Below are positions 34,790 through 39,708 of a stretch of 64,000 bases of DNA, in pieces. Position numbers and translations under genes: made by a program. The DNA is from Candidatus Bathyarchaeota archaeon (GTDB lineage Archaea; Thermoproteota; Bathyarchaeia; Bathyarchaeales; Bathycorpusculaceae): NCBI GenBank assembly GCA_029881805.1, contig JAOULW010000002.1, positions 124,001-188,000 on the forward strand, in the 5' to 3' direction. Under the pieces are notes generated by a model. The model was not told the origin of the DNA. It worked only from the letters and a program-made list of their open reading frames with translations, and ran no database searches. Each line of letters starts with the position of its first letter. Position 1 is the stretch's first letter.

Positions 34790-35227
34790 TCATGGATTGA
34801 TCTTGTATACATTTTTGACTATCGTCTCAAGTATTTTATGATGCTTCCTTTCGTCATCTGCAATGTGCTGCAATAATAATTTTAGGCCCTCATCTTTTGT
34901 ATGTTTCATCTCTTCTTCGACATGAGCCAAAACATCAGTCTCCATTTTCACGTGAGTCTCAAGTTCTCTCTTCACTACAAAAGGATCTACATAACTTTCG
35001 ATTTTATGTTTCCAAAGTGCCTGAGATGGAGAAATTCCCTTGAGCGTCTTGAGAATCCCTGTTAAAATGCCCTCATGTTTCTGTGAATCTAGTCGCATTT
35101 CAAGCAAAAGCAGTTTTGCAGCAGCGTTGCCGACTCTCTTTTCCATTTCAGTAATACGGTCAACATGCGTTTTTTCTATTTTGATCTGTTGTTTTAAGAG
35201 CTGAATCAATTTTTCTCTCTGTTCCAT
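34790..35227 (-). CDS. Ferritin-like (four-helix, ExxH) protein 1
   Basis: 145 aa all-helical. Candidate metal ligands are in EKTHVDRITEME, MRLDSQKHEGIL, KMETDVLAHVEEEM and IADDERKHHKIL. The D/E-ER-KHH-x-I/L motif is the typical second half of ferritin-like/rubrerythrin-type di-iron sites. No rubredoxin tail. A paralogue lies at 36830-37309. It may handle iron or peroxide; inferred. Confidence 0.75.
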   Translation of the reverse strand: MEQREKLIQLLKQQIKIEKTHVDRITEMEKRVGNAAAKLLLLEMRLDSQKHEGILTGILKTLKGISPSQALWKHKIESYVDPFVVKRELETHVKMETDVLAHVEEEMKHTKDEGLKLLLQHIADDERKHHKILETIVKNVYKINP

Positions 35228-36829: not shown

Positions 36830-37309
36830 CTATCCTCCGGGAGCCCCGTGGAACGGAACGTTTTTCCAGAGAAGTTCCCACCAGTCCTCTTCTGTTATGG
36901 TTTCTCCTCTGACAATAATATCTAATACCATTTTCAGTAATTGATGGTGTCTTTTTTCATCCTCCAAGATTGCATTTAAGAGAAGCTTAACTTTCTCGTT
37001 TTCAACGGTGGGCAACACTTTGCTGATTTTTTGGATGAGCTCCGCTTCCAAGCGTATGTGCTTTTCCACCTGTGCCTTTTGCTTGTCGAGGTTTTCCTGC
37101 GAAAGGGCTCGGGACACGCCTGTTAGCAATTCAGTGGCTGCAGCATACATTTCTGCATGCTTAATAGAATCCAAGGATATTCCTTTCAGAACTCCCTTGA
37201 CAGGTGGGTTTTTTATGTCAACTAGAGCGTTATTCAATGAGTCCACAATTTCATTTTCAACTTCTATCTGTGCCTTAAGAAAATTTGTCAATTCGCCTTT
37301 TGATTTCAT
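36830..37309 (-). CDS. Ferritin-like (four-helix, ExxH) protein 2
   Basis: 159 aa, paralogous to the protein at 34790-35227: IEVENEIVDSLNNAL, SLDSIKHAEMYAAAT, HIRLEAELIQKI and LEDEKRHHQLLKMVL provide Glu/His pairs in four helices. It has a C-terminal extension (TEEDWWELLWKNVPFHGAPGG). Probable di-iron ferritin-like protein; oxidase, peroxidase or storage role not decidable. Confidence 0.75.
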   Translation of the reverse strand: MKSKGELTNFLKAQIEVENEIVDSLNNALVDIKNPPVKGVLKGISLDSIKHAEMYAAATELLTGVSRALSQENLDKQKAQVEKHIRLEAELIQKISKVLPTVENEKVKLLLNAILEDEKRHHQLLKMVLDIIVRGETITEEDWWELLWKNVPFHGAPGG

Positions 37310-37797: not shown

Positions 37798-39708
37798 TTG
37801 ATAGGCGTGGAAGAAGATAGAATATCTTATCACGAATCTGTTCGAAGAATCTATGGAAAAATTAAGAAAGACGGCATGACCAACATCTGGGATCGTTACG
37901 AAGCGCAAGGATTCGGAGGAAATCCTGACCAAAGATGTCCTTTCTGCATGAGCGGAGCCAGATGTGACCTCTGCTCTAATGGTCCGTGCCGTGCAGATGC
38001 GTCAAAGGACAAGAGAGGAGTCTGTGGGATCACCGCTGATGGCATGGCAATGAGGATGATGTTGCTCAGAAACGTCATGGGCGCGTCCACGTACCACTAC
38101 CACACGGATCAGACAGTCAAAACCCTCCGGGCCACTGCAAAAGGGCAGACGCCTTTCGGAATAAGGGAAACTGACAAATTAAGAAGTCTAGCCATGCGAC
38201 TTGGAATAGATGCGTCAGGATTGGACAATGACATCGCCATTAGACTATGTGATTTTGCGGAAGTAGACTTCAACAGGAAGTACTATGAGCCGAGTCAGAT
38301 CGTGGAAGCCTTGGCTCCACAAGAACGCAAAGAGGTATGGCGTAGGCTAGGTATTTTTCCAGGCGGGATTTACAGTGAAATGATGTTGTCTACGAGTTCA
38401 TGCCTTACAAACGTTGATGGTTACTACGTGAGTCTAGCTCTGAAAGCAATGCGTCTGAGTATAGCGATGGCATACCAAAGCCAGATCATCAACGAATACT
38501 GTCAGGACATAATGTATGGCATAGCAAGACCGCACAAGATGCGCGTAGATCTAGGTGTGTTAGATCCGGATTATGTAAACGTGTTGCCAAACGGTCATGA
38601 GCCGTTTCTGGGGTTTGCCATGGTTCAACTAGCTAGGAAGCCCGAATGGCAAGAGAAAGCAAAGGCTGCGGGAGCAAAAGGTTTGCGTGTCATTGCCAAC
38701 ATTGAAACAGGCCAAGAAATGATTCAGCGATGGGAGATGGATGACATCTTTTATGGTTTCACTGGAAACTGGATTGCGCAAGAGGCGATATTGGCTAGCG
38801 GATGCGTCGACCTTTTCGTGGCTGACATGAATTGTTCAATGCCAATTGACCCTTTGTACGCTCAGAAATACAAGTTCAAGCTTGTGCCTGTGAGCGAACT
38901 TGTTGCTTTTGAAGGCATTGAAGATCGAGTCAATTATCAGCCTGAGAAAGCCGGTGAACAGGCTGCGCAACTGCTGCAAATGGCTATTGACAACTTCAAG
39001 GCTCGTAGGGCGTCAGTGAAGCCAATGACTGGACTGCCTTTGAAAGATGCTGTGGTCGGGTTCTCCTCTGAAAGCATTCTTGCTGCTCTCGGGGGCACAC
39101 TTGATCCCCTATTGGAAGCCATAAAGAATGGCACATTGCGCGGAGTCGTAGGTCTTGTTTCATGTACAACTTTGAGAGATTTCGGTCAAGATGTGCACAG
39201 CGTGAACGTGGCTAAGGAGCTTATCAAGAGAGATGTTCTTGTCCTCTCATTGGGATGCGGCAACGGCGCGATGCAGGTTGCCGGTCTTTGCAATTTGGAA
39301 GCCAAAGAACTTGCAGGTTCAGGTTTGAAAAGCATATGTGAAAAGTTGAACATTCCTCCTGTTCTGAGCTATGGCACATGCACAGACACGGGACGACTTG
39401 CTGATCTGCTAAAGGCTATCTCCGATGCGCTCGGCGTGCCAATACCAGATTTACCTGTAGCTGCTGTGGCACCTGAATATATGGAACAAAAGGCAACAAT
39501 AGATGCCGTGTTTGCTCTGGCCTTGGGACTCTACACTTATGTCAATCCTGTGCCCACTGTCACAGGAGCGCCAAATCTGTTAAGACTACTCACGCAAGAC
39601 TGCAAACAGGTTACTTCTGGCTTGCTGAGTGTGGAAAAAGATGTGGTTAAGGCTGTAGATGCAATCTTGAATCACATCGAAGAAAAAAGGAAAAAGATTG
39701 GCATTTAA
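37798..39708 (+). CDS. cooS: Ni-CODH family protein (CooS-like) with altered C-cluster ligand set
   Basis: 636 aa, full family length. Cluster B cysteines are present (ARCDLCSNGPCRA and GVCGI). The D-cluster region has a CPFC (CxxC) spacing instead of the Cx7C form. C-cluster ligands: His in NGHEPFLG, Cys in ADMNCSMP, Cys in VSCTTLRDF, Cys in LGCGNGAMQ and Cys in YGTCTDTGR are present. Where typical enzymes have CCTGNE, this has IETGQE, so the cysteine equivalent to Cys295 is Glu. TTG start, or GTG 37807. No cooC or cooF neighbours. CO oxidation is therefore uncertain. Confidence 0.88.
   Translation: MIGVEEDRISYHESVRRIYGKIKKDGMTNIWDRYEAQGFGGNPDQRCPFCMSGARCDLCSNGPCRADASKDKRGVCGITADGMAMRMMLLRNVMGASTYHYHTDQTVKTLRATAKGQTPFGIRETDKLRSLAMRLGIDASGLDNDIAIRLCDFAEVDFNRKYYEPSQIVEALAPQERKEVWRRLGIFPGGIYSEMMLSTSSCLTNVDGYYVSLALKAMRLSIAMAYQSQIINEYCQDIMYGIARPHKMRVDLGVLDPDYVNVLPNGHEPFLGFAMVQLARKPEWQEKAKAAGAKGLRVIANIETGQEMIQRWEMDDIFYGFTGNWIAQEAILASGCVDLFVADMNCSMPIDPLYAQKYKFKLVPVSELVAFEGIEDRVNYQPEKAGEQAAQLLQMAIDNFKARRASVKPMTGLPLKDAVVGFSSESILAALGGTLDPLLEAIKNGTLRGVVGLVSCTTLRDFGQDVHSVNVAKELIKRDVLVLSLGCGNGAMQVAGLCNLEAKELAGSGLKSICEKLNIPPVLSYGTCTDTGRLADLLKAISDALGVPIPDLPVAAVAPEYMEQKATIDAVFALALGLYTYVNPVPTVTGAPNLLRLLTQDCKQVTSGLLSVEKDVVKAVDAILNHIEEKRKKIGI

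Follow-up and report, generated by a model that had tools for sequence, protein, structure and literature searches.

The gene of interest, an open reading frame at 37798..39708 (+) of the window (the whole 64,000-nucleotide stretch of a Candidatus Bathyarchaeota contig that was analysed), very probably encodes a CooS-V-type homodimeric enzyme of structural group D-1 (clade D), built on the carbon monoxide dehydrogenase (CODH) scaffold and with CooS-V-like hybrid-cluster chemistry. The gene, its ligand set, its clade, its closest fold match, and the absence of a hybrid cluster protein (HCP) from the genome are established here; that the cluster shares the chemistry of CooS-V is proposed by analogy. 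The protein is a further, well-conserved member of a group that has already been described: D-1 was defined by Inoue et al. 2019 (PMC6344411) through a type III D-cluster, the ligand series H-E-C-C-C-C, a Tyr, a Lys, and an extra HCP Glu, and its non-CODH, HCP-like nature was predicted in the same work.

The reading frame starts with TTG, encodes 636 aa, and is intact, with no internal stops. Homology-based annotation names the product an anaerobic CODH catalytic subunit; its score with TIGR01702, the model for the CODH catalytic subunit, is 730 bits (cut-off 478), and it matches PF03063 in a Pfam scan. Against the HCP model TIGR01703 it scores only 33.1 bits, below the family cut-off of 360.8, and membership of HCP was rejected on this ground. 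The top PDB match by sequence is 7b7q (CooS-V from C. hydrogenoformans; E 1.3e-211). The structural modelling proposed in the initial annotation leads to the same place: the AlphaFold model (mean pLDDT 88, pTM 0.90) has 7b9a/7b7q as its top fold match (TM 0.96, rmsd 1.5 Å, 51% identity), with the true CODHs, at 30–36% identity to the window protein, ranking behind.

Alignment with CooS-V and with true CODHs bears out the exchange on which the initial annotation was centred, a Glu at the C-cluster Cys295 position. The motif IETGQE (residues 302–307; 38701..38718) stands where Ni-CODH has CCTGNE, and Glu303 (38704–38706), the equivalent of CooS-V Glu295, aligns with the second Cys of CCTGNE. The remaining C-cluster ligands are present, as had been claimed, and are supported by both the alignment and the relatives: His267 (38596..38598; His259 of CooS-V, reported in the CooS-V paper as a hybrid-cluster ligand in the reduced state), Cys346 (with Asn345 at 38830..38835; Asn337-Cys338 of CooS-V), Cys456 (39163..39165; Cys449), Cys487 (39256..39258; Cys480), and Cys528 (39379..39381; Cys521, the persulfide carrier in oxidised CooS-V). 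The cysteines of the other two clusters are spaced C47-x2-C50-x5-C56 and then C56-x2-C59-x4-C64-x11-C76. Cys47 and Cys50 (37936..37947) form a type III D-cluster, so that the CxxC spacing read earlier was correct; an equivalent pair is found in CooS-V, and the two are expected to hold the subunit-bridging [2Fe-2S]. Cys56, Cys59, Cys64, and Cys76 (37963..38025) are those of the [4Fe-4S] B-cluster.

Two further features had gone unrecorded in the initial annotation. The first is a second HCP-like Glu, Glu563 (39484..39486), which by alignment and relatives corresponds to Glu556 of CooS-V and to the Glu of the HCP cluster (Glu494 in D. vulgaris) and lies two residues ahead of the retained acid-base Lys565; both Glu ligands of the HCP hybrid cluster thus have counterparts in the window protein, Glu303 and Glu563. 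The second is the loss of the catalytic His: by alignment, Tyr99 (38092..38094) stands where CODH has its acid-base catalyst, His93, and Tyr is a listed D-1 trait. Indeed, the traits that Inoue's Table 2 lists for D-1 are all present (a type III D-cluster, H-E-C-C-C-C, a Tyr, and a Lys), and the active site agrees with CooS-V at each of its eight positions (H, E, N, C, C, C, C, E). Two features of active Ni-CODHs, Cys295 and His93, are missing, with Glu303 and Tyr99 in their places.

A contig scan found 444 stretches encoding relatives; the best 80 of these were analysed, 79 of them readable. The best 80 are 75–83% identical to the window protein and belong to archaea (Bathyarchaeota, Asgard lineages, ANME-1, Methanosarcinaceae, Thermoplasmata, Hadarchaeota, Archaeoglobus) and to bacteria-side groups (WOR-3, Chloroflexota, Actinomycetota, deltaproteobacterial groups), a spread among phyla that, with identities this high, speaks for horizontal transfer. 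The eight active-site positions are invariant in all 79 readable relatives: Glu303, Glu563, Asn345, His267, and the four cluster cysteines. The six D- and B-cluster cysteines are equally invariant. One of the scan patterns contained Glu563, and the invariance of that residue is therefore partly due to selection; Glu303 was in no pattern, and its presence in 79/79 relatives shows that it is not due to chance.

The initial annotation had called for placement in a tree. A maximum-likelihood analysis of 62 proteins groups the window protein with CooS-V and all other Glu-bearing rows in a single clade (support 100/100), outside of which the canonical CODHs fall. Within it, the window protein sits in a Bathyarchaeota subclade (99/95), whose rows are fewer than apparent, some genomes being listed twice (L051 = G384; L055 = G402). 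A second D-1 group, about 54% identical and from another family (f16) of the same phylum, carries the complete ligand set. The earlier suggestion that the active site may be intermediate between CODH and HCP stands for the active site only; tree and fold place the protein firmly within the CooS scaffold.

A separate CooS-like group, also from the window's family and phylum (L024, L026, L027, L183–L187), keeps Cys at position 295. Its active site reads H-C-N-C-C-C-C-E (the N and the E being equivalent to Asn337 and Glu556) and has the catalytic His replaced by Tyr and the catalytic Lys by Gln; in the 62-protein tree it forms a long branch outside both D-1 and the canonical CODHs. Tyr plus Gln is a trait listed by Inoue for clade C (PMC6344411).

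The window genome (2.2 Mb, estimated to be 100% complete) was found to contain no further CooS and no HCP. The search for ACS subunits and a canonical CODH, also suggested at the outset, was positive: a cdhA-B-C-D-E cluster, complete and accompanied by CooC-like ATPases, lies on contig C24 at about 241 kb (names read from translations), the same contig as the window gene and about 78 kb from it, and a second CdhA lies apart from the ACS genes on contig C4 (20000–36000, L037). In the 295 region, both CdhA proteins keep CysCys. Other genes of the genome thus provide for CO chemistry, namely those of the canonical CODH/ACS and the second CdhA. The latter adjoins a NiFe-hydrogenase large-subunit-like gene, Mrp-type ATPases, and Mrp/NifX-like proteins (again read from translations).

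Around the window gene itself, a Pfam scan of nine neighbours gave ferritin/rubrerythrin-like proteins, a membrane transporter, a glyoxalase-like protein, an archaeal eIF-1A, and a pyridine nucleotide-disulphide oxidoreductase. As initially stated for cooC and cooF, neither lies among these nine, nor do ACS genes; such neighbours are usual for Ni-CODH, though not strictly required. No conserved operon was found for the gene. The glyoxalase-like ORF lies 157 bp downstream; in none of the eight Bathyarchaeota-type loci compared, which include some genomes twice, does it recur close to the gene. The ferritin/rubrerythrin-like proteins are encoded upstream on the opposite strand, at 34790–35227 (-) and 36830–37309 (-); only one relative genome (L055, L192) has a homologue of the former (49% identity) close to the gene, at a distance of ~1.8 kb. 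Scans for promoters and terminators around the gene gave results at chance level, using sigma-70 patterns that are not applicable to archaea.

Could the protein nevertheless be a functional Ni-CODH that oxidises CO? Five C-cluster ligands and the acid-base Lys565 are retained, and the initial annotation had suggested that a nearby Cys (Cys336, in ASGCVDLF; 38803..38805) compensates for Cys295. Moreover, genetic work in M. acetivorans (Rother 2007, as cited in PMC6344411) suggests indirectly that CO oxidation may involve a D-1 protein. Cys336 is indeed a Cys in 67 of the 79 close relatives, but is Ser in six and Ala in six, all 12 of which carry Glu303; Ala is likewise the residue of most members of the second D-1 group and of CooS-V, which still assembles its cluster. 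Cys336 is thus not a conserved ligand, the compensation idea is not supported, and its candidacy as a required ligand was rejected. Added to this are the change of the catalytic His93 to Tyr99 and the inactivity of CooS-V with CO (Jeoung 2022, PMC9311411); in CODH-II, the C295E exchange abolishes both Ni and CO oxidation, according to work cited in PMC9311411. We consider CO oxidation by a Cys336-dependent Ni-CODH very improbable. That Glu303 itself might be an error of sequencing or assembly, or the mark of a decaying gene, has a negligible probability: no points in its support were found, the ORF is intact, close relatives are 75–85% identical over their full length, and all 79 that are readable carry the Glu. 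Sequencing error, which had been named as something that would overturn the initial reading, was accordingly rejected.

A more serious alternative is that the protein is a redox or NO sensor, or another regulatory protein, in which a morphing cluster acts as a switch rather than as the site of turnover. Turnover by CooS-V is very slow, regulatory or redox-sensing roles have been suggested for clade D (PMC13056359), Rrf2 regulators adjoin the gene in WOR-3 relatives, and an ArsR-like regulator does so in one Bathyarchaeota relative. The window protein, however, keeps the whole B/D electron-transfer chain and has no sensor output domain, while in some relatives an electron carrier is encoded near the gene, as expected of an enzyme. 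A sensor is therefore unlikely, and an enzyme of the CooS-V type remains our preferred reading.

The activity of such an enzyme would probably be other than CO oxidation, as the initial annotation had supposed from the HCP-like active site; this view finds support here and was already present in Inoue 2019 and Jeoung 2022. In CooS-V (PDB 7B7Q), Jeoung et al. (PMC9311411) describe a redox-morphing Fe/S/O cluster that contains no Ni and neither oxidises CO nor reduces CO2, and attribute this to the Cys295-to-Glu exchange, the mark of a subclade. By analogy, electrons would enter the window protein at the interface [2Fe-2S] (Cys47/Cys50), pass to the [4Fe-4S] B-cluster, and end at an Fe/S/O hybrid cluster that lacks nickel and has as its ligands His267, Glu303, Cys346, Cys456, Cys487, Cys528, and Glu563. 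Reduction may then convert the oxidised, oxo-bridged cluster to an open [4Fe-3S] form and open a gas channel. As cluster and channel would both open on reduction, the protein may be a low-potential reductase of a small oxidant. It probably does not oxidise CO, a task that would fall to the genome's Cdh complex. Hydroxylamine is the only substrate demonstrated for CooS-V, and its reduction is very slow (kcat 0.13/s; PMC9311411). We infer a possible role in nitrosative or oxidative stress, against which count that same slow turnover and the fact that NO reduction was undetected (PMC9311411). The assignment to the CooS-V type is itself tempered by an identity to CooS-V of only about 51%.

Clade D genes are mostly solitary (64%) or near regulators (PMC13056359), and those of the relatives, in agreement with this, are often solitary. 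In 18 of the best 80 loci (of 444), though, a FrdX-like ferredoxin is encoded within about 2.5 kb. These proteins, 240–320 aa long, combine a dicluster ferredoxin at the N-terminus with a conserved domain at the C-terminus; the 18 loci cover about eight groups at phylum level, and the ferredoxin is encoded upstream of the gene in some and downstream in others. A ferredoxin-like gene, frdX, has been reported in operons with hcp (Rodionov et al. 2005, PMC1274295). Four genomes of the window's phylum encode a member of the FrdX-like family no more than about 3 kb away from an HCP gene, and family and HCP occur together in 22 genomes, versus 39 × 30 / 300 = 4 expected if independent, an excess that shared ancestry inflates. 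There is no FrdX-like neighbour beside the window gene and no full-length homologue in its genome, so the association supports the class rather than the window gene directly. The recurrent neighbour is a modest new point beside an HCP-like reading that is already published. It raises the tentative, and somewhat doubtful, idea that CooS-V-type proteins, widely distributed by horizontal transfer, serve as a low-potential counterpart of HCP and use HCP's FrdX-like ferredoxin as donor in many lineages, and that the window protein stands in for HCP with another carrier in a genome that has neither.

Two other neighbours recur among the relatives. A small cupin-like protein, for which an NCBIfam search with one sequence gave no family, adjoins the CooS-V gene in L052, L054, L085, L093, L111, L114, L117, and L121, often accompanied by the FrdX-like ferredoxin. 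In Methanolobus and related genomes (L092, L098, L118, L120), a His-rich P-type ATPase-like protein, probably metal-transporting, starts 24–49 bp downstream on the same strand.

These results bear on how genomes are read. D-1 members are routinely annotated as CO dehydrogenases, and the window protein scores far above the TIGR01702 cut-off even though two CODH-defining residues are missing; CO metabolism may thus be over-predicted from genomes. The ferredoxin that recurs beside the relatives' genes is a testable lead on electron donor and substrate.

Among known systems, CdhA, the alpha subunit of the archaeal CODH/ACS, belongs to the same superfamily and has two copies in the window genome, but is about 780 aa long, with an extra FeS domain, the canonical CysCys motif, and one copy in the ACS operon. 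The Ni-CODH CooS proteins (clades E/F, e.g., ChCODH-II and ChCODH-IV) share with the window protein the scaffold, the B-cluster, five of six C-cluster ligands, and Lys565; they differ in that the window protein has Glu303 for Cys295, Tyr99 for His93, and Glu563 for His/Ser, is about 31–36% identical to them, and is encoded without cooC/cooF neighbours. HCP (hydroxylamine reductase, TIGR01703) has equivalent Fe/S/O cluster ligands, including two Glu, whereas the window protein has a CODH-type fold with an interface D-cluster and groups by sequence with CooS proteins. From CooS-V, the window protein differs in its separate D-1 subclade (of which no characterised member was found), its extra Cys336, and its archaeal host; the two share about 51% identity over their full length, both Glu, the whole ligand set, the type III D-cluster, the His93-to-Tyr exchange, and a gene without CODH accessory genes beside it.
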